Positions 23,000 through 55,730 of a stretch of DNA of 64,000 nucleotides are shown one piece after another (within the stretch, counting starts at the first letter, position 1; every line of letters starts with the position of its first letter). Made by a program: the position numbers and the translations under genes. The stretch lies in the NCBI GenBank assembly GCA_004134985.1, contig REGQ01000010.1:124001-188000 (forward strand). Direction: 5' to 3'. The DNA is from Paenibacillaceae bacterium. GTDB lineage: Bacteria; Bacillota; Bacilli; Paenibacillales; Paenibacillaceae. Below the pieces are notes generated by a model. That model searched no databases. It saw only the letters and a program-made list of their open reading frames with translations, and was not told the DNA's origin.

Positions 23000-25900
23000 T
23001 TATTTCACTTCTTGACTCTCGATGTAGCGGTGCGCTCTCATGGCAACAACGACCGCCATCTCTCTGGTTGCTGTCCCCTTCGGATTAAAGCGGTTAGCGT
23101 AACCCGCCATAATGTTTAGCGCTGTGAGGTCCGCAACATGTCCCTGTGCCCAAGACGCAATCTGCGCACGGTCTTGATAGACAATGCTTGATTGAACCGG
23201 CTCACGATTCAACACCCTTGCCATCATGACCGCCATTTCTTCTCTTGTAATCGTGGCATTCGGCAAAAATTGATCCTTATATCCTTTGACAATTCCCGCT
23301 GCATATGCGGTATTGACGTATGAATAGAACCAATCCGTCGTCTTGATATCACCGAAAGGAGCAGCTGCCTTACTTTCAGCTTTTATGCTGAACACTTCCA
23401 CCAGCAACTTGGCAAATTCAGCTCTAGTGATCTCATTTTTCGGATTCACTTTGCCGTTAGACCCTTTAACAAACCCTTTCTCTGTTGCCTCAAGAATAAG
23501 ATCATACGCCCAGGAAGAGACGTCTTTGCTATCTTTATAGAAGTCTGCCAAAGACTTTTCGGGCTTGTCTGTATTTGGCGAGCCTTTGCCGTCACCTTGA
23601 CCAGGTTTTCCTTCCGTACCCGAGTTTCCTTGTCCGTTGCCTTGATCAGGTTTTCCTCCCGTATCCGGATTTCCTTGTCCTCCACCTTCATCAGGTTGGT
23701 CAGGCTTTTCTCCTGTACCCGGGTTCTCTTCCCAATTCGAAGGATCTTGGCCCAGATCGATGCCAAGATTGGTCGTATAACGCCATTGGACATTATCTCC
23801 CTGTTTGAGCTTATATTGACTTGCTCCGTAATTAGGGTAGTTGCCATTGACGTTATACATCCAACCGCTGCCGCTGCCATGATCAAACTCGCCATCACCT
23901 GCAATAGACTCGATATAGACGCTATTGTATTTACTTGAGAAAGAGTGTTGATAAGCAATATTGTGTTTATCCAACTCTCTTCTGATCACATCCCAGACCG
24001 ATTCGCCTGGTGTAAATTCAACCGTTGTTGACGGCAGGACATATCCTTTATTGATCGTTAATTTATCAACCGACAATTGAATCGTTGCTTTTTCAGGGTT
24101 TGGCCCGGAACCGCCGTCGCCCGGCAGCGTACCACCGCCGTTATCATTCTTGTCCTTAAGCGAATAGGCGACAAAGTCCGTGAAGTGATTCGTTTTAACA
24201 ATAAGATCATTCCCGTCTTCATACGCATACTCAGGCTTGCCGCTTGCTAATCCTTCCTGGTTGCTCGCAAACTTTTGAATCGAGGCAAGCTGGCCATTTT
24301 GGATAAATGCAGCTTCTTTGCCTTTCATCCCCTTGAAGACAATTGCAACAAATCCATCTGTAAAATGAACCGATTCGTCTCCGCCAATTGTGAAAAATTC
24401 ATGGACTGCATCGACTTGCTTATTCGCATTCAGCAGACCGTTCAGGCTCGTTTTAAGCGCCTCATCATTTTTATTTTTGGACGTGATCAGTTCAAGTATT
24501 TGATTTGATTCGCCATCCAATGTTATTCCGTGAGGGAATGCGACATTGATGCCGCCTCTTACGATAGACAGCTGCGGCAGCGCCACATTGGCGGGCAGAC
24601 TGATGAATGTTTTCGATTGCGCATGATCGGGCAGTTCAATGGCTATTTGCTTATCTAGATCCGATTGTTCTACGAGTATCGTGTAGAGTTTGCCGTTATT
24701 AGGAATAACGATCGGCTGATCATTGTCGGGCAATTCAACTGTCTCGCTTGGCCCCTTCTCCTCAATCGAAACATCTGTCATATCATACAGACTGGTTTCT
24801 CCATTCAAGTAACGGGCATAAGCAACTAGAGCATAAGTGGCTTGATCTGTAGCCATCCCATTTACGTTGCCGCCTTTAGGATGGACAAACCCGCCTGTCG
24901 GAGCCCCGTAAGTCAGCAAATTTTCGACGGCGGAATGTCCGTTCTTGTTAAACCGCTCATCCGTATGCGGGTCAATACCCAGACTGGTTAGCGCCACGAT
25001 TACCTGGGCAACACTTTGGACATTCTCAGAACCCCAGCTCGTGTAACCTCCAAATTGGTTCTGGGCCGAAGAAAGCCAAAGGACCCCACGATCGACTGCA
25101 GCTGTGACCTCTTCCTTCTTATTGTAATAAGGGGCCAAAGCTTGAATCGCCATGGCGGTTATATCCGGATCTGCCGCTCCAGACAAGGACCACCCGCCGC
25201 CGGCAACTTCTTTGTTCACAATATAGTCAAGGAGTTTGTTGCGCGTCGTTTGATTCCCAATCCCATGCTGTACCGGGATACCATATTGATGGCTATCGAG
25301 TGCGATCAGCGCAAATATTGGTCCGTTAATCCCCTGCTTGGTGACGTAATCAAAGTCTGCTAACGCGGCACTGATATCATATCCTGCTACATCGTAAATG
25401 TTTTTACCAATTGCCGTAAGCGCTAAGATAAGCCTTGAATGCTCCGTACCTTTCGACCGATCCAGCTTTCCTTGCGACATAAAGCGTTCAACAACTTTAC
25501 CAACCACATTGCTGTAATACGTAGCGAAATAACCTTCCGGTACCTCATAATTGGCGCGCGCAAGCGAAAGAATGCTCCATTCCCCGCCAATCGTATCGAA
25601 CGTAGGATTGCTTACGGTTTTAACCATATAAGCTAAATGCTTATCTAAATGTTCGTTTACGTTTATGGCATTTTTCTTCAAACCCCGTTTTTTGGCACTG
25701 TCAAACGAATCATGTGATTGGTCTAGTGCCAGTACTTTAGCGTCAACTTCGTCTTGGCCGGCATTTTCGTCAGCTATTAAAGCTTGTGCCGATTCAATAA
25801 GCTGTGCATATTGACGGTATACGTCTTCTGTCACCCAATATTCGCTTTGGAGAAGATCCGCTCCGTCTGTACTTATGGAGACCGATGTCAGTTGTGCCTT

Positions 25901-28900
25901 GGCATCATCAACAGCAAGCTGAAGAGAAGCCTTATCCACCGCCTTAACAATTACGATCTCGGGAAAAATACTGTAGTATCCTTCTCTACCCAATGCCGTG
26001 AAATTAGGGTTTGCCCCTACTAACGGATCAATATTCCGATGATCTCCAATCGGACTGCCGAAAAAACCCAATTTAATGTGTCCGTCATAAAGGCTATAGC
26101 CCCCTTTCAGATTCTGTGGAATCTGAAATTCCAGACTATTGGCCTGCGTAGTAATGTTGTATTGTCTTACAAGACCAGCGAGCAGTGTCCGTTCATGTCC
26201 CGCCAAAAAATTGATTTGCGCATTAAAATTGTAAATACCTGCTAACTTATTAGCTGGGAATGATAACCCATTAAATACAACTTTAACGCGATCTCCGGGA
26301 CCAGCTTCTTCTTGTGGACGAGTCATATTTTCGATGGTAACAGTCAGTGGCCTTGCCGTCATGACCTGGTATTCGGCCAGCCCGTCTCTTTCGACCTTGA
26401 CAATGTTTCTGCCTTCCGTCAGCAGCACGCTGAAGGATCCATCTTGATGGGAAATCACATTTTCCGCGGAAAACGTGCCGTCTTCATAAGATACCGTTCC
26501 CAAGGCATGATTAATTGTAGGACGGAGAACACTTACTTCGCTTCTGACGGAAGGAGTAAACGTATAGGTAGCTCCAGGCTCCGTATCCATGAAGTAGACA
26601 CTATCAATATCTGCATCGAATGCGCCGTTTTGAAGGTTCATTATATCATTGCCCGTCTTGCCTTCATTGGCCTTCTGATTGCGTACCTTGTTGCTCTCAA
26701 TGCCTGTAGAAATACCCGTTTCGCCTTGGCCCACTGTGACAACAAACAAGCCTACATTTTCTGGCCAAATGGCACTGAATGCATCGGCTGTGTCTTTAAT
26801 ATAAGTCGACCCGTTTACCTTTAGAGCATCGTAAGTTACTTTAACAATCGCTGTTCCATTCTTATTGGCACGGATCGTTGAATAGCTGCCAGGCTCGCCT
26901 TCAGCAATCTCAATGACATCTTGACCCGTGATGATCTCATAATGAAAATCAGGTTCAAAGAAATAATTGCTGATGCCTTCAATTAAAGCCTGCCAGCTTC
27001 GCAAGCTTAATAACTTAAACTCATCGCCAGGCTCCGACAGCTTCAAGTGATTTTGTTCGTTGATATTGAGATAAATATTCCCTTCCAAGTAGGTCCCACG
27101 ATTTAAAATTGCCTGAGGGGATAGAACATTCAATTGTTCCTCTGTAATCTTCATCGAAGCATTCGCTTCATTTGCTCTGAATGTGCCTGTGTTTGTTAGC
27201 TTGCCTTCTTGACTTACCCGATAGTTATATTCCTGATTATTCGCTAGTTTGTAGCGATATACTTTTTTACCGTCCTGAATCGTCGATTCTGCAGGCTCGA
27301 CTTTTTCAAAAGTGATAAAATGCTTTATTTTCCGGCCAACGGTTAGTGTTGCTTGCTCAGGCACGGTAAAAGTTATCGCGCGCGCTAATGGAAGCGCCCC
27401 AGAAACAGATTGTGCTGAAGTGGACATCGTAACTGTAACGCTGTTGCTTAATGCAATATAACCCTCAACATCACGTGCTGTGCTTGGCTCAAAAGAATAA
27501 AAATACGTATTCCCTGCAAACACGAGGACAGGGTATTCTCCCGCGGCCGTCTTCGTCCCCAAAGTGAGCGATGTATCGCTTGGACTATTCTGACCAACCT
27601 TTACCGTATAATCTTCATCCGCGTTCCACCCTGTGTTACTGGCTTTAAGGTTCAATTGGCGGAATTCAAATCGTTGATTCGGCTCCGTCGTTACCGCCAG
27701 CTTCCCTCCGCCAATGCTATTTCCGCTAGCGTCCATCCCTCTGTAGCGATAGTCTCCTGCGGGCAAAGAAGCCGTATATACTTTATAAGTGCCCTCTTCA
27801 CCCTCACCTATGCTCATGAGCTGATCTTGAGAATTATAGAGCTCTAACGCAGCGGTTGTAGGCGCAACCGTAAACGTAATATTAAATTCGGGCTGAGTCT
27901 CCTCTTCCCATAAACCTGGCTTTTTGGCTTCATTGAAGACCGCTTCTGCTTGATTGAGCGCTAATACCTTGGCGTCCACCGCTTCTTGCGTCGCATTCAA
28001 ATCGGCAACTAGCTGCTGAGCCGAGACGATGACTTCGACCAATGCATCAAACTCTGTTTGGACAACCCAGTAATCCGTTGTGCTGACATCCGATCCGTCT
28101 ACGCTAACCTTCACAGATGCTTTGGTTAACTCTGCGTCTTGAATGGCGGCTTCCAATTCAGCCGTATTCAGTTCATTGCTCTCATTTAATGCTTCAATCA
28201 ACTCTTTTAAAGCATTGTCAACAACCAATTGACTGCTCTCGATATTCGTGAGGACATCATAAGCGTTGTCGTACGCTGAACGAACAGCATCCTCTGCAAG
28301 AATTTCTGTTTTATCTGTGCGACTGTTAATCTCTGCTACTTTTTTGGTTAATGCATCTTTGTTGGCAGGATCATAAAATGCATTATAGCCTCCCAAATCT
28401 CCCCCGTATCCGTAAACGGTGTATTGCCAGCGAATAACATCGCCGCTTTTAATAGAGGCAACCGAAGCTCCGACGTCCGGGAAAGTGTGATTCACTGCGA
28501 ACATCCATCCCGATTGGTCAGTGTAATCAAATTGGCCTAACCAATCCGCGTCCGCCCGATCTCCAATCTGATCTTCTCCAATGGCTTGCAAGATATAGGA
28601 AGGAGGATTAACGGCTCCGGCTCCAGGATCGTAGATTTTGGATAAATAGAAGCCGCTATCAACACTACCGCTATTCTCATAGCCCCCTTCTCCCAAAAGC
28701 TCTGTAATAACTGCTGCCGCGTTGTCTCCTTCATGAAGGGGAACACGAATTGGCTCAACGATGTAGCCTTGTCCCAAGGTGAACTTCTCAACAGATATTG
28801 TCACATATCCCTCTACATCCTTAGCATCTGACACGACCGCCGCTGCCATCACAGCTGTGGGGCTGAATAATGAAAAAATCATCAGCAATGTCAAGCTTAG

Positions 28901-28936
28901 TGCGATAAATTTTCGCCCTGTTTTTTGCAAGAACAT
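23000..28936 (-). CDS. Giant SLH surface protein with two transcobalamin-like (DUF4430) domains and an alpha/alpha-toroid-like region, B12-riboswitch controlled
   Basis: The 1978-residue protein follows AAAGGAG and a signal peptide ending near VMAAA. Order of parts: DUF4430 (transcobalamin-like C-terminal) domain at about 41-180 with SGWMFAVN; a FIVAR-like helical domain at about 265-350; large beta regions; a second FIVAR-like domain near 985-1070; and a prenyltransferase/alpha-toroid-like region at about 1090-1400 with GGGWSLSG and QNQFGGYTSWG. Then come a second DUF4430 domain at about 1617-1735 (GSGWMYNVNGNYPNYGA), a Gly/Pro/Asp linker and three SLH domains at about 1800-1978. Toroid plus DUF4430 is the layout of animal intrinsic factor and transcobalamin. 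With the cobalamin riboswitch upstream, a surface corrinoid-capturing role is a strong inference. Confidence 0.9.
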   Translation of the reverse strand: MFLQKTGRKFIALSLTLLMIFSLFSPTAVMAAAVVSDAKDVEGYVTISVEKFTLGQGYIVEPIRVPLHEGDNAAAVITELLGEGGYENSGSVDSGFYLSKIYDPGAGAVNPPSYILQAIGEDQIGDRADADWLGQFDYTDQSGWMFAVNHTFPDVGASVASIKSGDVIRWQYTVYGYGGDLGGYNAFYDPANKDALTKKVAEINSRTDKTEILAEDAVRSAYDNAYDVLTNIESSQLVVDNALKELIEALNESNELNTAELEAAIQDAELTKASVKVSVDGSDVSTTDYWVVQTEFDALVEVIVSAQQLVADLNATQEAVDAKVLALNQAEAVFNEAKKPGLWEEETQPEFNITFTVAPTTAALELYNSQDQLMSIGEGEEGTYKVYTASLPAGDYRYRGMDASGNSIGGGKLAVTTEPNQRFEFRQLNLKASNTGWNADEDYTVKVGQNSPSDTSLTLGTKTAAGEYPVLVFAGNTYFYSFEPSTARDVEGYIALSNSVTVTMSTSAQSVSGALPLARAITFTVPEQATLTVGRKIKHFITFEKVEPAESTIQDGKKVYRYKLANNQEYNYRVSQEGKLTNTGTFRANEANASMKITEEQLNVLSPQAILNRGTYLEGNIYLNINEQNHLKLSEPGDEFKLLSLRSWQALIEGISNYFFEPDFHYEIITGQDVIEIAEGEPGSYSTIRANKNGTAIVKVTYDALKVNGSTYIKDTADAFSAIWPENVGLFVVTVGQGETGISTGIESNKVRNQKANEGKTGNDIMNLQNGAFDADIDSVYFMDTEPGATYTFTPSVRSEVSVLRPTINHALGTVSYEDGTFSAENVISHQDGSFSVLLTEGRNIVKVERDGLAEYQVMTARPLTVTIENMTRPQEEAGPGDRVKVVFNGLSFPANKLAGIYNFNAQINFLAGHERTLLAGLVRQYNITTQANSLEFQIPQNLKGGYSLYDGHIKLGFFGSPIGDHRNIDPLVGANPNFTALGREGYYSIFPEIVIVKAVDKASLQLAVDDAKAQLTSVSISTDGADLLQSEYWVTEDVYRQYAQLIESAQALIADENAGQDEVDAKVLALDQSHDSFDSAKKRGLKKNAINVNEHLDKHLAYMVKTVSNPTFDTIGGEWSILSLARANYEVPEGYFATYYSNVVGKVVERFMSQGKLDRSKGTEHSRLILALTAIGKNIYDVAGYDISAALADFDYVTKQGINGPIFALIALDSHQYGIPVQHGIGNQTTRNKLLDYIVNKEVAGGGWSLSGAADPDITAMAIQALAPYYNKKEEVTAAVDRGVLWLSSAQNQFGGYTSWGSENVQSVAQVIVALTSLGIDPHTDERFNKNGHSAVENLLTYGAPTGGFVHPKGGNVNGMATDQATYALVAYARYLNGETSLYDMTDVSIEEKGPSETVELPDNDQPIVIPNNGKLYTILVEQSDLDKQIAIELPDHAQSKTFISLPANVALPQLSIVRGGINVAFPHGITLDGESNQILELITSKNKNDEALKTSLNGLLNANKQVDAVHEFFTIGGDESVHFTDGFVAIVFKGMKGKEAAFIQNGQLASIQKFASNQEGLASGKPEYAYEDGNDLIVKTNHFTDFVAYSLKDKNDNGGGTLPGDGGSGPNPEKATIQLSVDKLTINKGYVLPSTTVEFTPGESVWDVIRRELDKHNIAYQHSFSSKYNSVYIESIAGDGEFDHGSGSGWMYNVNGNYPNYGASQYKLKQGDNVQWRYTTNLGIDLGQDPSNWEENPGTGEKPDQPDEGGGQGNPDTGGKPDQGNGQGNSGTEGKPGQGDGKGSPNTDKPEKSLADFYKDSKDVSSWAYDLILEATEKGFVKGSNGKVNPKNEITRAEFAKLLVEVFSIKAESKAAAPFGDIKTTDWFYSYVNTAYAAGIVKGYKDQFLPNATITREEMAVMMARVLNREPVQSSIVYQDRAQIASWAQGHVADLTALNIMAGYANRFNPKGTATREMAVVVAMRAHRYIESQEVK

Positions 28937-28969
28937 GACCAGTCTCCTTTATATTTATTTTGGTAAATC

Positions 28970-29008
28970 AAAAAAAACACCGCTCACTTGTCATTGAGAA
29001 AGGTGTTT
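28970..29008 (-). terminator. Riboswitch-controlled intrinsic terminator
   Basis: On the minus strand AAACACC ... TCTCA ... TGAG ... GGTGTTTTTTTT forms a stem ending in eight T residues. It lies between the cobalamin riboswitch and the SLH gene start, so B12 binding should cause premature termination. Confidence 0.85.
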
Positions 29009-29085
29009 GACATACGGACATACCCATGCCCGAATAAATGCACAGTGAAATATCCCTCCTTTCATCCTCGTGAAAATCGCAGAAG

Positions 29086-29251
29086 AGGTAAATGGCATGT
29101 ATCCTGGCTTTGCTTCATCGTATAACTAACTCCTTCCCGTATCCAATACAGTGGAAACACGTTAGCATACTCAGTGTTACAGTGGCGGGACCGCGTCAGA
29201 TTTGCACTGATCTTCCATTTTGAGCTGTGTTCAACACAGCGCCATTTACCT
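29086..29251 (-). promoter_or_regulatory. Cobalamin (B12) riboswitch
   Basis: A perfect 11-bp closing stem pairs AGGTAAATGGC (29251-29241) with GCCATTTACCT (29096-29086). Inside are the conserved core CAGTGCAAATCTGACGCGG, then CCCGCCACTGTAA, and near the 3' side the B12 box AAGCCAGGATACATGCC. Spacing and order match the Rfam cobalamin class. The downstream terminator indicates transcriptional control of the giant SLH gene, normally off when adenosylcobalamin is plentiful. Confidence 0.92.
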
Positions 29252-29583
29252 GAACATTATGAAGTTGTCTTATCAAAAAGTGGAATATAGGTACTGATTT
29301 ACTCCCCCTCATAAATACCCGTTGACCTGCTCGAAACGATCACAATGAGCATGCAACTACTGCAACATCAATTCGCTTGCTCATAGAAGAATAACCCATT
29401 TAGGATGAGTGTGCAATCGTTACTTAGTAGAGAAGTCAAAGTGAAGTAGATTTACATGACACGGAAAGCAAACATCCACTATAGCTCTCTCCCCCTTCAT
29501 GAGTATCCAGTAACACAAATGGGCTAATGCGCATAGACTGGGTTTGAATATAACCAGATTCTTTTGCATTGGAGATGTGAGAA
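29252..29583. other. Divergent intergenic region
   Basis: It holds the promoter feeding the B12 leader leftward and that of the 29584 gene rightward. Apart from these expected sites I see no gene or repeat. Confidence 0.4.
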
Positions 29584-30370: not shown

Positions 30371-31053
30371 TTATTTGTTGCTTTCAGTCAGCAAGTCGAC
30401 GATAATATCAGCTGTTGTTCTACTGAAATCGGATCACTAAACAGAAATTGATCGAAATCAATATTATAGATCTTTCCGGCTTGCCATGTTGGCGTGTTTT
30501 GAATTAACGTTTCCACTTCCTTCATTTTTTCCTCCGCCCCTTTATTCACAGCCAGAATCAACCGATCACCCATGAAATCGGGAATGACCTCGGTAGATAT
30601 TTCCCATGTTTCGCCATGAATGACCTCGGTGTTTACTTTTTCGGCGGGTTTCAAATTCAGATACTTGTAAATGATGTTGCCCCCCATATTGGTATCTCCG
30701 TAAATAAACACATTATTAGGACGCACATTCAAAATCGAAAAGGTCTCATCAGCCTTAATAAATGGACTAATCTTTTCCTTGTATTCAGCTATTTTGGTCG
30801 CAAACGCCTTATTCCACTGTTGGGCTTCGTCCTGCTTGCCGAGAATATCGCCAAACATTGCGACATCCTTAATTGGATCGTTGTATTGCTCCACAACAAC
30901 CGTTGGTGCAATCTGGCTCAGCGCTTCGTACCCGCCCTCTACAGTCTCCGCGAATGGCAGCGTTGTAACTATCAGATCAGGCTCCAGCGACAGAATCTTC
31001 TCCGCGTCAGGCGGGACGCCAACATCTGCAATGCCGGCAGTATCGCTTAACAT
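30371..31053 (-). pseudogene. Decayed FhuD/BtuF-like siderophore-binding domain (frameshifted, N-terminus lost)
   Basis: The reading frame shows a siderophore-binding fold: DAEKILSLEPDLIVTTLPF, the ADETFSILNVRPNNVF strand and the C-terminal FLFSDPISVEQQL. No signal peptide or lipobox is present, and the N-terminal lobe is missing. After QQL the frame shifts by one base near 30410; the other frame reads DIIVDLLTESNK and stops at 30371, the natural family end. The frame also extends 5' of the ATG (VKITHILKN) into the AraC gene. I read it as the binding domain once fused to the AraC regulator at 31062-31916, as in Btr-type iron regulators of Bacillales. It is now broken. Confidence 0.75.
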
Positions 31054-31061
31054 CGGATTTT

Positions 31062-31916
31062 TCAGAATGTGGGTGATTTTAACAGACGTAATGGATTATT
31101 ATGAACCGAATTCCGCTTTTCTTCCCGAAATTGAAGCGGCGAGCATCCCGTATGCTTCTTGAACAGCCGCCTGAAATAATAAACGTCCGCATAGCCCACA
31201 CTGCCGGCTATTTCCAGGATTCGAGCCTCCGTTTTCAGCAAATGCTGCTTCGCTTTGTGAATCCGTACATAAATCAAGTACTCAATTGTGCCCGCTCCAA
31301 TCTGGCTTTTGAACATGCGAGATAAATAGCTCACGCTGCAGCCATAAATTCCGACCAATTGCTCGGTTGTAATCGGCTCCCTATAATGCTCATGAATATA
31401 ATGAATTGCTTCGGCTATCAAATTCGGCCGGCTGTTGTCCTCCGCGGAAGCGCGGAGCTGCCGCATTACCTCGTATACAAACGGAAGGAAAGTAGACTGC
31501 GCCTGCAGCCTGTCCATCGGGGTTGCTTGCTGCCATAGACGATTCATCGTTTGACACTTTTCCTGCAGAGGCAGCATGGCATACGGGGTGAATCCATACG
31601 ACATATGGAAGGTCTCCCGATCTTCCGGCAATTCACAATTGGCTTTATACAGAATCAAATAGCAGGCATAATCGTTTCCCAGCGGCATGAAACTCAGCTC
31701 CGCTTCCTTGCCTCCATGCAAAATGTGAAGTGGACGGGCCTCATAGACCGTTCCCGCCAGACTCACTCTTGCCTCTCCATGAGCAGTAACCAAGAAGAAG
31801 CTTGTGTGCGCCACATAGCGATCAGGTAATGTGCCATTCTCCACACCGTACTGGCATATATCCAGCAGTGTAACAGCGGCTCGACTCCACCGTTCGATGT
31901 GGGTTTCCCAGTCCAT
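31062..31916 (-). CDS. AraC-family transcriptional regulator, Btr-like, probably truncated fusion
   Basis: The ATG at 31916 is about 8 bases after GAGGGGG, giving 284 residues. The N-terminal half is an AraC-type cupin-like sensing region. The double helix-turn-helix is at about 165-270: TTEQLVGIYGCSVSYLSRMF and ILEIAGSVGYADVYYFRRLF, then the HTGCSPLQFRE signature. After this the frame ends in an odd tail (HNNPLRLLKSPTF), and the next bases in another frame resume a siderophore-binding domain. In Bacillales, AraC-binding-protein fusions control siderophore uptake. The DNA-binding part here looks intact, but the ligand domain is cut off by deletion and frameshift. Confidence 0.85.
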   Translation of the reverse strand: MDWETHIERWSRAAVTLLDICQYGVENGTLPDRYVAHTSFFLVTAHGEARVSLAGTVYEARPLHILHGGKEAELSFMPLGNDYACYLILYKANCELPEDRETFHMSYGFTPYAMLPLQEKCQTMNRLWQQATPMDRLQAQSTFLPFVYEVMRQLRASAEDNSRPNLIAEAIHYIHEHYREPITTEQLVGIYGCSVSYLSRMFKSQIGAGTIEYLIYVRIHKAKQHLLKTEARILEIAGSVGYADVYYFRRLFKKHTGCSPLQFREEKRNSVHNNPLRLLKSPTF

Positions 31917-32004
31917 ACATGGTCCCCCTCTCACTATTTCAGCGAATCTAACGAACTTTAGCGTGGACTAGATCGGTTAGTATGTCCCAATTCAACGATC
32001 ACCT

Positions 32005-38598: not shown

Positions 38599-38610
38599 AC
38601 ATGGTACATA

Positions 38611-38936
38611 TGGAGGCGAGGGGATTTGAACCCCTGTCCGAAGATAACGGCACATGTGCTTCTACGGGTGTAGTTACAGTTTTGATGCCACCCAGGAGGA
38701 CGCCTCGTAACCAACTTCTTCCAAGGTCAGGCTGATTGTCTTCTTCAGCTCACCCCAGGCGGAGACGAGACAGCGTATCCCACTACTTGTTAGCCCCTAG
38801 TCTAGTCACATGAGCGATGCTAGGTAGGAGCACTCTCACAGTTTCTTAGGCTGCGACAGCGTAGTTTGTTTGTTGTTTTCCATTTAATAGGCTTTAGCGT
38901 TGATTAAGTGGACGCGTCCCCTCTACCCGCAACCCG
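38611..38936 (-). ncRNA. ssrA: tmRNA (ssrA) copy 1, 5'-truncated
   Basis: The 3' end has the T arm AGGGG-TTCAAAT-CCCCT followed by the acceptor strand CGCCTCCA. Upstream are the pseudoknots and the tag frame ATGGAAAACAAC..., encoding GKQQTNYAVAA and a TAA stop, typical of Paenibacillaceae tmRNA. The first about 35 bases of a normal tmRNA, with the TTCGACA element that pairs with the 3' end, are absent: identity stops near 38936 and AT-rich island DNA starts. CCA is not encoded at the end. As written it cannot fold the acceptor stem, so it is probably a long remnant or a junction. Confidence 0.88.
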
Positions 38937-38950
38937 CTGGCCTCAATGTG

Positions 38951-39157
38951 TCATCTAAACACAGAATACATTGAGCCCCATTGTCCAATGACTCCATTCG
39001 CTTTTAAACGACTCATAGCAATATCCAGTTCTGATCGTTCTTTTTCAACCCCAATTGAAATTAATTCATTAAGTATATCATCAATAGTGAATGGCTCCCT
39101 TTTAGAAAGAACAATTTCCCCTAATTTATAACTAGCATTATTTATAATTGCAGACAT
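38951..39157 (-). CDS. Small winged-helix-like protein, partner of the HD enzyme
   Basis: AAGGAG lies about 8 bases before the ATG at 39157, and the gene starts 17 bp after the HD gene stop, so the two form an operon. The 68-residue product has helices KLGEIVLSKREPFTIDDILN and a pattern DIAMSRLKANGVIGQWGSMY ending in a small hairpin, as in winged-helix DNA-binding domains. I do not recognise a family. AT-rich composition and lysine/isoleucine bias mark it as transferred. A regulatory or antitoxin-like role to the HD protein is inference. Confidence 0.65.
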   Translation of the reverse strand: MSAIINNASYKLGEIVLSKREPFTIDDILNELISIGVEKERSELDIAMSRLKANGVIGQWGSMYSVFR

Positions 39158-41702: not shown

Positions 41703-42941
41703 ATGATCAAGAATGGGGAGTTTTATGTGATCCAGCATATGTGGCAAAAAGGCATGAATAAGACACAGATTGCCGAGGAACTTGGCCGGGATCGGAAGAC
41801 CATTGACAAATGGCTTCGTGAAGAAGGTCCTAAATCCTATAAACGCCAAGCGTTAAAACCTAGCATCCTAGCCCCGTATCAAGAATACATCCAGTCCCGA
41901 ATGGAAGAAGGCTGTCTGAATGCGACCGTACTGTTCGATGAAATCAAAACAAAGGGATACCCGGGACAAATCCGGTTGCTGCGCAGCTTTATGGAACCCC
42001 TGAGGCCTACCGTACTTGCCAAAGCCACCGAGCGTTTCGAGACGCCGCCCGGTAAACAGGCTCAGGTCGATTGGGGCCACTTCAAAGTCGAGTGGAACGG
42101 TGAATCTAAACGCTTGTATGCTTTCGTCATGGTACTCGGCTATTCTCGGGCGATGTATCTCGAGTACACGGAAGACGAAAGGTTAGATACCCTGATCGGC
42201 TGCCACGTCCGGGCTATGCAGTACTTCGGTGGCAGAACGGAAACGGTACTCTACGACAATATGAAGACGGTCGTAGCTGGAGCTGACGAACAGGGCCATC
42301 CCCTATGGAACGAACGGTTCGCCCGGTTTGCCGCCCATCATGGCTTTCTGCTTCGGCGTTGTGCCCCGTACCGTCCGCGTACCAAAGGCAAAGTCGAGAA
42401 TGGCGTCGGCTATGTGCGCAAAAACTTTTGGCCGCGGGTACGTACGTTCACCGGTTTAACCGATCTCAACATCCAGGCTCGCTTGTGGCTTGACACCGTT
42501 GCCAACGTCCGCATCCACGGCACCACTCATGAAGTGCCGCAGCAGCGCTTGCTGCAGGAAGGCCTGAAAACGTTCAACCTTGTTCCCTTCGATGAAGCGG
42601 AGCGGCACCCCCGCAAGGTAGCCGCTGACGCGCTCATCTCCTACGAGGCTAATCGCTATTCGGTGCCTTGGCGATATGTCGGTCAGGTCGTGGAGCTACA
42701 GGATGAACGTAACGGCCGGATTCGGATCTTCGCACAGGATAAACTCATCGCTGAACACGAGAAGGCCGCCGGACACCGCGAGATCATCTTCAACAAGAAG
42801 CATACCGAGGGGATCCGTAAAGCAGGCGGCAAGCCCGCGCAACTGCCGATGCCGCGCCTCGTGCAGCAAGCATTGCCAGACGTTGTCATACGCGACCTTT
42901 CGGTCTACGAGCAGTTGCTGGATGAGGAGGTGGTTCAATGA
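41703..42941 (+). CDS. istA: IS21 transposase IstA
   Basis: The 412-residue protein begins with a helix-turn-helix (MNKTQIAEELGRDRKTIDKW) and carries the integrase-like DDE domain. The first Asp is in QVDWGHFKVEWNG, the second in VLYDNMKTVV and the Glu in TKGKVENGVGYVRKNF. It catalyses strand transfer of the element and needs IstB. A good ribosome site (GGGGGAGAG) precedes the ATG. It overlaps istB by four bases in ATGA. Confidence 0.93.
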   Translation: MIKNGEFYVIQHMWQKGMNKTQIAEELGRDRKTIDKWLREEGPKSYKRQALKPSILAPYQEYIQSRMEEGCLNATVLFDEIKTKGYPGQIRLLRSFMEPLRPTVLAKATERFETPPGKQAQVDWGHFKVEWNGESKRLYAFVMVLGYSRAMYLEYTEDERLDTLIGCHVRAMQYFGGRTETVLYDNMKTVVAGADEQGHPLWNERFARFAAHHGFLLRRCAPYRPRTKGKVENGVGYVRKNFWPRVRTFTGLTDLNIQARLWLDTVANVRIHGTTHEVPQQRLLQEGLKTFNLVPFDEAERHPRKVAADALISYEANRYSVPWRYVGQVVELQDERNGRIRIFAQDKLIAEHEKAAGHREIIFNKKHTEGIRKAGGKPAQLPMPRLVQQALPDVVIRDLSVYEQLLDEEVVQ

Positions 42942-43720
42942 TCGTTGTGACCGAACGTTTGCAGGGAGCTTTCGAGCAGCTTGGATGGAGCCGAATTCCA
43001 GACATTTTGCATCAGCATGCCGAAGAGGCGGCCACCCAGAACCGCACCTATCTGGAGTTTCTCGACGGATTGCTTCAGGAGGAACTCTCCGCCAAGCATG
43101 ACCGCTTTATTCGCATGAAAACCCGGATGCCTCACTTGCCGTACCACAAAACGTTAGATCAGTTTGACTTTGCTTTCCAGCCTTCGGTCGAGGAACGTCG
43201 TATCCGGGATTTGGCCACCCTCCGCTTTGTAGAGCACCAAGAGAATCTGGTCTTTCTAGGGCCGCCTGGCGTGGGTAAAACACATTTGGCCGTGGCTCTT
43301 GCATTGGAAGCCATTAAACGGCGCTACACGGTGTATTTCACAACCGCACACGATTTGGTCCAGACCCTGCAGCAAGCGCATCTCAACAACACGATTACGC
43401 AGAAGATGAAGGCACTCACCAAGCCCAACTTGCTGATCATCGACGAGATTGGCTACCGCAAAATGGACGAAACCGCAGCGCACTTTTTCTTTCAGATTAT
43501 TGCCGAGCGCTACGAATCTGGTTCCATCATTCTGACCTCCAACAAGTCCTACGGTGCCTGGGGGGAAATATTCGGCGACTCCGTATTAGCCACAGCGATA
43601 CTCGACCGCCTGCTCCATCACTCCACGACGATTAACATTAAGGGAGAGAGCTACCGCATCAAAGAGAAGAAAAAGGCAGGCTTCTTTCGGCCTGATAAAG
43701 AAAACGAGACAACGGAATGA
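42938..43720 (+). CDS. istB: IS21 helper ATPase IstB
   Basis: The 260-residue protein has an AAA+ fold with Walker A GPPGVGKTH at about 109-117 and Walker B LLIIDEIGY. It is related to DnaC and stimulates IstA while choosing target DNA. It starts in the ATGA overlap with istA, and ends with a Lys/Glu-rich tail. No defect is visible. Confidence 0.93.
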   Translation: MIVVTERLQGAFEQLGWSRIPDILHQHAEEAATQNRTYLEFLDGLLQEELSAKHDRFIRMKTRMPHLPYHKTLDQFDFAFQPSVEERRIRDLATLRFVEHQENLVFLGPPGVGKTHLAVALALEAIKRRYTVYFTTAHDLVQTLQQAHLNNTITQKMKALTKPNLLIIDEIGYRKMDETAAHFFFQIIAERYESGSIILTSNKSYGAWGEIFGDSVLATAILDRLLHHSTTINIKGESYRIKEKKKAGFFRPDKENETTE

Positions 43721-43881: not shown

Positions 43882-43889
43882 ACTAATGA

Positions 43890-44100
43890 TGGAGACGAGG
43901 GGATTTGAACCTCTGTCCGAAGATCACGCCACACAGGCTTCTACGGTGTAGACACAGTTTTGATGCCACCCTAGCAAGCGCCCCATAAGCGGCTATCGCT
44001 AAGGTCAGCCTGTTTGTCTTCTTCAGCTAGCCCCAGGCGCAGACTAGACAGCATATCCCACTAATTTTGGTGTAAACGTACTCTACTCCGCCTACACCTC
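43890..44100 (-). ncRNA. ssrA: tmRNA (ssrA) copy 2, 3' fragment of about 210 bases
   Basis: The 3' end is again AGAGG-TTCAAAT-CCCCT and CGTCTCCA, followed upstream by ATCTTCGGACAG and the pseudoknot region with AGTTTTGATGCCACC on the plus strand. It diverges from copy 1 at many loop and stem positions. Similarity fades near 44100 before the tag region, so the peptide tag and the 5' half are missing. The fragment has its own terminator, and cannot act as a tmRNA. It looks like a scar of an ssrA-targeted integration. Confidence 0.8.
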
Positions 44101-44112
44101 TGATTGTATCAA

Positions 44113-44328
44113 CTAAATATCATATTGTAATGTATCTACAGAAGCCAAACACACCCTCCCATCCATTCTTACTAATCTATCAAGCAACGCTATGCCAAAA
44201 TAATACAATTCCTTATTTCGAAGATACTCTATCACAGTTTGAATCTCATATTCGGAGAGTTCGAGTTTATTCAACAATGTTGAATACGATTGGGCTATTG
44301 CCTGTAGCCAGTATATATACAGAATCAT
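44113..44328 (-). CDS. Short open frame, doubtful
   Basis: Seventy-one codons (IYWLQAIAQSYSTLLNKLEL, then YFGIALLDRLVRMDGRVCL) look protein-like and AT-rich. No ribosome site precedes the ATG at 44328, so it may be a fragment of an island gene whose start is lost. No family is recognised. Confidence 0.3.
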   Translation of the reverse strand: MILYIYWLQAIAQSYSTLLNKLELSEYEIQTVIEYLRNKELYYFGIALLDRLVRMDGRVCLASVDTLQYDI

Positions 44329-54575: not shown

Positions 54576-55116
54576 AGTCAAGATGACATTTTTCTCATAT
54601 TTCCAGAGTCAAGAGTAGCCATTTAGAGATTGCATATAGCTATTAAGCAAAAGAGCTCAGCACCCATAGTGGCTGAAAAACCGCCGAACTGATAGGATAA
54701 TGTAGTTTTACTCGTCTTTTAGTAGCTGCACAGATCAACTACCACTACTTCGCACCGTTAAGCAGCCATTTGAGCAACACAACTTATTTAGCTGCTTAAA
54801 ATAGTAGAGATTTTGTTTAGAAGGCATTGGAAAACACCTCAATCACATATTCTCTTCATAAATAGGAACTTTCCCCCAACTGCAAGACCCAATTCCTAGC
54901 CCTCTCAGTCGTAGAGCAGCACCATGTTGCGCAGACCCGTTCGCTGATTTGCAAAGTAACGTAAAAACCGAAAGTACCATCGAAAGCGTCACCAAAACGC
55001 AACTGACGGTACTTCTACTATATGAAAATATTTAAACTGTTCCGATTGGAACCAGAGTGAACCCTGTCCAGCATTAAAAGTTGTGGTTTTATACGGACAA
55101 GAGTTCGATTTTCCGA
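54576..55116. other. AT-rich intergenic stretch between the palindrome and ssrA copy 3
   Basis: About 540 bases without a recognisable gene, repeat or RNA. It should include the promoter feeding the HTH operon at its left end. Nothing else supported. Confidence 0.4.
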
Positions 55117-55339
55117 AGGGGATTTGAACCCCTGTCCGAAGATAACGGCACATATGCTTCTACGGGTGTAGTTACAGTTTTGATGTCACCTTAGCGATCG
55201 CCCCGTAACCGGCTATCGTTAAGGTCAGCCTGATTATCTTCTTCAGCTCACCCCAGGCGGAGATGAGACAGCGTATTCCACTACTTGTTAGCCCCTATTC
55301 CAGTCACATGGACGATGCTGGATAGAAGCTCACTCACAG
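55117..55339 (-). ncRNA. ssrA: tmRNA (ssrA) copy 3, 3' fragment of about 220 bases
   Basis: The 3' part of a tmRNA on the minus strand: T-arm AGGGG-TTCAAAT-CCCCT, then pseudoknot region and CCTGTCCGAAGATAACGGCAC on the plus strand. Homology stops right at the T arm on the left (sequence GGGGATTTGAACCCCT preceded by TTTTCCGA instead of the acceptor strand). On the right it ends at 55339, where a transposase relic begins. It differs from copies 1 and 2 at many positions. Cannot be functional. Confidence 0.8.
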
Positions 55340-55730
55340 GAGCGGCCTTGAAACTCTTTTTGCAAACGAAGCAGCGATTTGTTGCATTTGAAGAAGACCT
55401 CAATGTCCCAACGAATCGCGTAAATATGAATCACATCTTCCACAGAGAGGGAAAGGTCCGTCGTCAGAATAGCGAGCCATTCGTTTTTCTTTGTGCGATG
55501 ACGAACGAATACCACACGAACCAGAATGCCTGAAGCAAGCATGACCGAAAGAGACAATAGGCATTGGAATATCATTTATTTCGACCATGTCATGAATAGA
55601 AGTATATTTCGCCAAGTTAATAAGCGCATCATCTCTACTAACTAATTTAGGCTTTACAATCCCCCCAATATTCCGCATACAGCTGAGTTGCAAAAACCTT
55701 AAGAAAAATAAATCCCAACAAGAAGTCAAC
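55340..55730 (-). pseudogene. Decayed IS4-type transposase C-terminal part
   Basis: Frame 55575-55330 reads VRVVFVRHRTKKNEWLAILT, YAIRWDIEVFFKCNKSLLRL and KEFQGRSCE, matching IS4-family transposases (Y-x-x-RW-IE-FFK and FQGRSYD). A second frame at 55729-55560 gives the preceding strands (KPKLVSRDDALINLAKYTSI), so at least one frameshift is present. The N-terminal catalytic half is lost. It abuts ssrA copy 3. Confidence 0.75.

Follow-up and report, generated by a model that had tools for sequence, protein, structure and literature searches.

What would a Gram-positive bacterium do with a predicted surface protein that joins parts resembling those of the animal vitamin B12 carriers and is encoded behind a B12-sensing riboswitch? 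The question is raised by the window analysed here, a 64,000-nucleotide stretch of contig REGQ01000010.1 from a Paenibacillaceae bacterium, in which a cobalamin riboswitch precedes the gene for a protein of 1978 residues. Very probably, the protein is anchored in the S-layer of a bacterium that scavenges B12, captures corrinoids there and passes B12 to an importer of the energy-coupling factor (ECF) class, of CbrT type. To our knowledge, the extracellular catching of corrinoids by Gram-positive bacteria is far less known than its Gram-negative counterpart. Dedicated surface B12 binders are described for Gram-negative gut Bacteroides (PMC8941943, PMC12751083). The parts discussed here are known in kind (riboswitch-controlled surface capture, transcobalamin-like binders and ECF transport); in the open-access literature we found neither their combination nor a description of bacterial DUF4430 proteins as B12-capture proteins, and only six papers there name the family (DUF4430, PF14478, IPR027954).

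Riboswitch, leader and domain architecture

The gene is the first after the riboswitch. The features of the locus, all on the minus strand (-), are the following.

29077-29261 (-): cobalamin riboswitch aptamer (RF00174), by covariance model; 8 of 8 orthologues read also have one upstream
28970-29008 (-): intrinsic terminator, a hairpin with T run that follows the aptamer and precedes the start codon, by folding and from eight orthologous leaders compared by eye
23000-28936 (-): open reading frame (ORF) of 1978 residues from ATG, predicted surface protein; orthologues at 68-78% identity
28844-28936 (-): N-terminal signal peptide, residues 1-31, by inspection
28367-28807 (-): DUF4430-1, residues ~44-190, second Pfam PF14478 stretch; model unreliable here
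27917-28354 (-): helical FIVAR-like linker, residues ~195-340; helices in the model, resembles the second repeat
25949-27889 (-): cross-phylum module, residues ~350-996, beta-sandwich domains with no Pfam family, from Bacteroidales identity and the model
25682-25939 (-): second FIVAR-like repeat, residues ~1000-1085, from sequence similarity and the model
24761-25654 (-): alpha/alpha toroid, residues 1095-1392, from the model and from cyclase and transcobalamin folds
24152-24745 (-): beta domain, residues ~1398-1595, separating the toroid from DUF4430-2, from the model
23744-24133 (-): DUF4430-2, residues 1602-1731, best Pfam PF14478 stretch and the model
23030-23518 (-): three SLH domains, residues ~1807-1969, by Pfam and a match to S-layer protein Sap

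In a covariance-model scan the riboswitch scores 103.4 bits (E 8.7e-25), where the gathering score is 31.5, and matches the model over its full length (1-189). Its 11-bp closing stem reads AGGTAAATGGC/GCCATTTACCT, and the core and B12 box are present, as a preliminary description made from the sequence had claimed; the end given there, 29251, cuts the first 10 nucleotides off the riboswitch, which extends to 29261. The terminator described in the same place likewise stands, although a consensus terminator scan returned 0 sites: strand folding gives a 7+4-bp hairpin at 28975-29008 and a stretch of eight consecutive T, of which three belong to the stem (71 nucleotides folded, -18.2 kcal/mol, z -1.9, 9 of 200 shuffles equally good), and a matching hairpin with a T run was recognized by eye in eight other leaders. 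The riboswitch lies directly 5′ of the orthologue in 5/5 loci of named Paenibacillus genomes and in 3/3 further loci of the same family; genome matches G353 and G388, which have the coordinates and scores of the genomes of loci L006 and L010, were not counted twice.

The single 1978-residue gene with two DUF4430 and three SLH domains, also claimed earlier, is confirmed by Pfam, with two stretches of DUF4430 (PF14478; 97.2 bits, cut-off 23.8) and three of SLH (110.5 bits, cut-off 20.8). The SLH region, separated from DUF4430-2 by a Gly/Pro-rich linker, matches the S-layer protein Sap (2.6e-14). The prenyltransferase/alpha-toroid-like region is clear in the predicted model, though Pfam reports it as SQHop_cyclase_C alone, at E 5e-5 and under its cut-off. 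Residues 257-342 and 1000-1085 are alike, with 46-50% identity in cross-matches to the L010 pieces, and one member of the module alignment A2 has a FIVAR match (E 0.002). The earlier account of the protein is supported, and the case is stronger than it supposed, but it was incomplete, missing the cross-phylum module and the transporter further along the proposed ligand path.

Two orthologues depart from this plan. The one at L046 (6669-14798, plus strand) is 2709 residues long, and the region matching residues ~1000 to ~1740, comprising the second FIVAR-like repeat, toroid and DUF4430-2, is duplicated. That of P. gorillae (L010, 9947-15797, plus strand), whose genome occurs twice in the genome set as G388 and G410, is interrupted near residue 911 and so read as two ORFs.

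Toroid and DUF4430-2 compared with transcobalamin and cyclases

In animal transcobalamin, intrinsic factor and haptocorrin, an alpha toroid is followed by a DUF4430-type beta domain; TCN proteins carry DUF4430 at the C terminus, according to PMC4350170. The predicted model of the window protein has the same fold, an alpha toroid and a C-terminal beta domain. With the toroid and DUF4430-2 as query, Foldseek ranks transcobalamin and intrinsic factor 1-8 among 350,542 PDB chains, at 9-11% sequence identity and with alignments spanning both domains, and places haptocorrin at rank 35. Model confidence (pLDDT) is mostly 78-96 in the toroid, about 60 at model residues 131-150, and about 68-87 in DUF4430-2. 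The layout of animal intrinsic factor, which the preliminary description had seen in the toroid plus DUF4430, is thus recovered across both domains, and the toroid resembles intrinsic factor in the model, although the closed two-domain arrangement differs. Because the RNA passes the cobalamin model and the toroid model resembles intrinsic factor, the transcobalamin-like reading is supported. The window protein differs from the animal family in being bacterial, riboswitch-controlled and about 10% identical, without a PF01122 match, and in having an extra beta domain between the two parts, a second DUF4430 and an SLH anchor.

Could it instead be an enzyme or a structural S-layer protein that is B12-regulated by coincidence, with a toroid acting as a terpene cyclase or glycosidase-like enzyme? 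A toroid profile run against the PDB finds cyclases and prenyltransferases and no transcobalamin, and a DUF4430 profile finds nothing there under E 0.1. Against this explanation, which we consider highly improbable, Foldseek puts the two-domain transcobalamin match above the cyclases, a signal peptide and SLH domains are present, and the pairing with DUF4430 and ECF genes recurs. DXDD is the catalytic motif of squalene-hopene cyclase, and it occurs nowhere in the 1978 residues; the toroid as an enzyme was rejected for lack of it. With SLH-anchored S-layer proteins the window protein shares its three C-terminal SLH domains, but it differs from them in its B12 riboswitch and its domains of ligand-capture type.

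DUF4430 genes, ECF cassettes and B12 economy

If the protein captures corrinoids, by which importer would they enter? At the locus of a genus mate (L047), riboswitch, orthologue (1891 residues), SLH-toroid protein, DUF4430 protein, EcfT and EcfA follow one another in one direction, and the stretch ends before any S component would appear. A Tepidimicrobium metagenome-assembled genome (L023) has riboswitch, toroid protein, DUF4430 protein, EcfT, EcfA and S component, and Tissierella (L025) has the same gene order, with toroid, DUF4430, EcfT and S assigned by similarity, whereas EcfA was recognized from its length and its position in the series. The window genome's homologous cassette, on contig C65, comprises SLH-toroid, DUF4430, EcfT, EcfA and S; its ECF parts are 42-60% identical, and its SLH-toroid protein is 55% identical to the toroid of the window protein. 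The best PDB match of the C65 S component is 6fnp, the ECF-CbrT vitamin B12 transporter (5.4e-13; runner-up 0.0074), and NCBIfam gives sub-cut-off FolT-like and riboflavin-type matches only. The S component of this DUF4430-linked cassette is thus homologous to that of ECF-CbrT (PDB 6FNP, PMC5997447). The published CbrT gene cluster is nrdJ-cbrS-cbrT-pduO, and DUF4430 is never mentioned in the main text of that paper (PMC5997447), a difference from the cassettes described here.

Across the order, DUF4430 is found at E <=0.001 in 47 of 149 sampled genomes, 46 of these over Pfam's cut-off. Outside the window genome, 124 matches, some below the cut-off, merge into 94 DUF4430 ORFs in 46 genomes, and 87 of the 94 have a cobalamin riboswitch on the same strand <=10 kb upstream, where a hand estimate for genomes of roughly 6.4 Mb with 3.1 riboswitches each puts chance expectation at ~0.2. 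Both size classes are linked (46 of 47 ORFs of 700 residues or more, 41 of 47 smaller ones), and 35 of the 47 smaller ORFs sit <=8 kb after a large one on the same strand. Two of the seven unlinked ORFs are in genome G061, with one each in G038, G077, G060, G138 and G124; the G124 ORF has a riboswitch 10.6 kb off, and in G060 and G138 the ORF stands at the beginning of its contig. The 46 genomes contain at least 143 riboswitches, or 3.1 per genome, both lower bounds under stricter filters with <=43 candidates scored per genome. In the window genome, one of two DUF4430 genes, that of the 1978-residue protein, is riboswitch-linked. Since 87 of 94 ORFs are riboswitch-linked, an ECF cassette is linked in a relative and the S component of the window genome's own cassette is CbrT-like, a B12 role is supported independently by comparative genomics.

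The bacterium probably takes up corrinoids rather than making them, as judged from its gene content. Of 359 first-look riboswitch candidates in the genome 150 were scored, and these include two cobalamin riboswitches, the second (G000:C22:85037-85246, locus L026) upstream of metE (TIGR01371, 1096 bits); a riboswitch in this place is the usual sign that MetH is used when B12 is present. MetH is present (971 bits, cut-off 1011, the piece read being without its N-terminal part), and CbiC was not found, other biosynthesis genes not having been searched for.

The ligand could also be a corrin precursor or a non-cobalamin cobamide (cobinamide, pseudocobalamin), or else cobalt or a lower-ligand base. 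With CbiC missing, any complete corrin ring could be salvaged (remodelling genes were not searched for), and cobalamin riboswitches precede other transporters too, among them predicted transporters of cobalt and nickel (PMC2667541). The S component, however, resembles CbrT, a B12 transporter, and the fold is transcobalamin-like. We regard such other ligands as unlikely, and the corrinoids among them would leave the mechanism unchanged, only the ligand being different.

The cross-phylum module and the proposed capture route

Between the two FIVAR-like regions is a conserved module of ~620 residues. Its identity is 31-37% to 12 Bacteroidales copies, which are spread over 11 loci controlled by cobalamin riboswitches, where the operon order is riboswitch-btuB-btuG-module; at L012, the proteins resembling BtuB and BtuG match chains A and B of 8blw. 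Few genomes of the window bacterium's order, 6 of 392, have the module. Alignment A2, which is A1 minus a misaligned L022 row and formed the basis of the model and of the module searches, has 79 columns invariant across 18 rows from two phyla; the tree was built without L010, L044 or the second G398 copy. Of 15 module ORFs in Bacteroidota, 13 lie under a cobalamin riboswitch, as do all nine Paenibacillus-type genes read; the riboswitch scores at L021 conflict (58.9 and 29.5 bits in two scans, the latter under the gathering score). Because the module is strongly conserved across phyla and its B12 context is near-constant, it is likely to be functional.

What that function might be is the weakest step of the mechanism; the module may be a binder, but it may also be a stalk or docking surface. 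Capture could reside in the toroid/DUF4430 part alone, with the module as an Ig-domain stalk or a docking surface for other uptake proteins, an explanation to which we give not quite an even chance. The 79 invariant columns are unusual for a spacer and, like the riboswitches over 13 of 15 Bacteroidota ORFs and the nine Paenibacillus-type genes, argue against it. The module profile has 0 matches in the PDB, although that collection includes BtuG entries.

Membership in DUF4465 (PF14717), the B12-binding family of BtuJ, was considered and rejected: the family is not among the 3 Pfam families of the window protein at E 0.01, nor among the 25 listed of 27 families matched by A2 members at E 1. The Bacteroides BtuB-BtuG-BtuH/BtuJ system (PMC8941943, PMC12751083, PMC13398666) resembles the proposed window system in riboswitch-controlled surface capture, and such operons contain the module. 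The window module differs in having no DUF4465 among the families listed and no PDB profile match, and in belonging to a Gram-positive protein that also has transcobalamin-like parts. Joined in one chain with DUF4465 and a type IX secretion system (T9SS) tail is the module of Bacteroidota locus L042 (337-3492, minus strand), the sole DUF4465 fusion met.

An unnamed protein of ~400 residues starting 'SPYI.KVY(E/D)..PAPGQFVN' also recurs in B12 operons of this kind (L011 3756-4937; L042 3565-4773; L043 8932-10119), with no Pfam match except the T9SS tail in L042.

In the capture route proposed here, scarcity of the coenzyme would lead the riboswitch to permit transcription past the terminator, and the protein would be made. 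Once secreted, it would be held at the wall through its SLH domains, where toroid and DUF4430 may grip the corrinoid in the manner of transcobalamin and intrinsic factor, the Bacteroidales-type module offering another site for contact or display. The corrinoid would then be handed to the SLH-toroid and membrane-linked DUF4430 proteins of the ECF cassette and imported through the CbrT-like S component, supplying MetH. Of this picture, the riboswitch, the architecture, the transcobalamin-like fold of the model, the operon linkage in relatives and the association across phyla are observed here, and binding, hand-over, location at the surface and the direction of regulation are inferred.

Several observations count against this assignment. 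Corrinoid binding by the 1978-residue protein is itself a prediction, and the nearest relatives of the toroid by sequence are squalene-hopene cyclases. PF01122 (eukaryotic cobalamin-binding) is absent among the 9 families matched by 7 toroids at E <=10, in searches where HMMER's filters discard most weak matches. Owing to a large root-mean-square deviation from transcobalamin (about 21-23 Å) and low TM-scores (~0.3 on the query, 0.41-0.49 on the target), the model does not reproduce how the two domains are placed in the B12 complex; a beta domain of ~200 residues intervenes between toroid and DUF4430-2, and the DUF4430-1 model is unreliable. The module model matches common Ig-like folds only, and no known B12 binder, BtuG and BtuH included, is among the 50 VIA-align matches listed, which mainly cover model residues 317-398 and 587-833 and carry no weight against such a relationship. 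Locus L022 has like genes and gene order, yet no cobalamin riboswitch at the locus or in its genome, G403. The main oddity is that the window genome's C65 cassette lies on another contig than the gene and has no cobalamin riboswitch, which disfavours a simple regulon.

More tentatively, and at somewhat less than even likelihood, a 'bacterial transcobalamin' relay may operate in the order, from a riboswitch-induced S-layer clamp through toroid/DUF4430 proteins to a CbrT-type ECF transporter, with the module as a new corrinoid-handling class exchanged between Bacteroidota and Paenibacillus, and with the animal carriers related to an old bacterial capture system. If the proposal is true, a system common in the order (DUF4430 in 47 of 149 sampled genomes) shares its two-domain parts with human intrinsic factor, which bears on the origin of animal B12 carriers; DUF4430 would gain a bacterial function with a likely importer named, and an unnamed two-phylum module would become directly testable for binding.

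Elsewhere in the window are three decayed copies resembling transfer-messenger RNA (tmRNA) on the minus strand, at 38608-38955 (92 bits), 43887-44158 (37 bits, below the gathering score) and 55116-55443 (66 bits). ARAGORN called no tmRNA within the window, and the genome's best tmRNA match is on contig C44 (173 bits); the copies may be relics of elements inserting in ssrA. Amid them is an IS21-type istA/istB pair (41703-43720, plus strand). At 30388-31934 (minus strand) are adjacent ORFs for an AraC-type regulator, whose nearest NCBIfam model is Btr, and a siderophore-binding-protein-like product; because Btr unites regulator and siderophore-binding-type parts in one protein, the pair may be a split gene.

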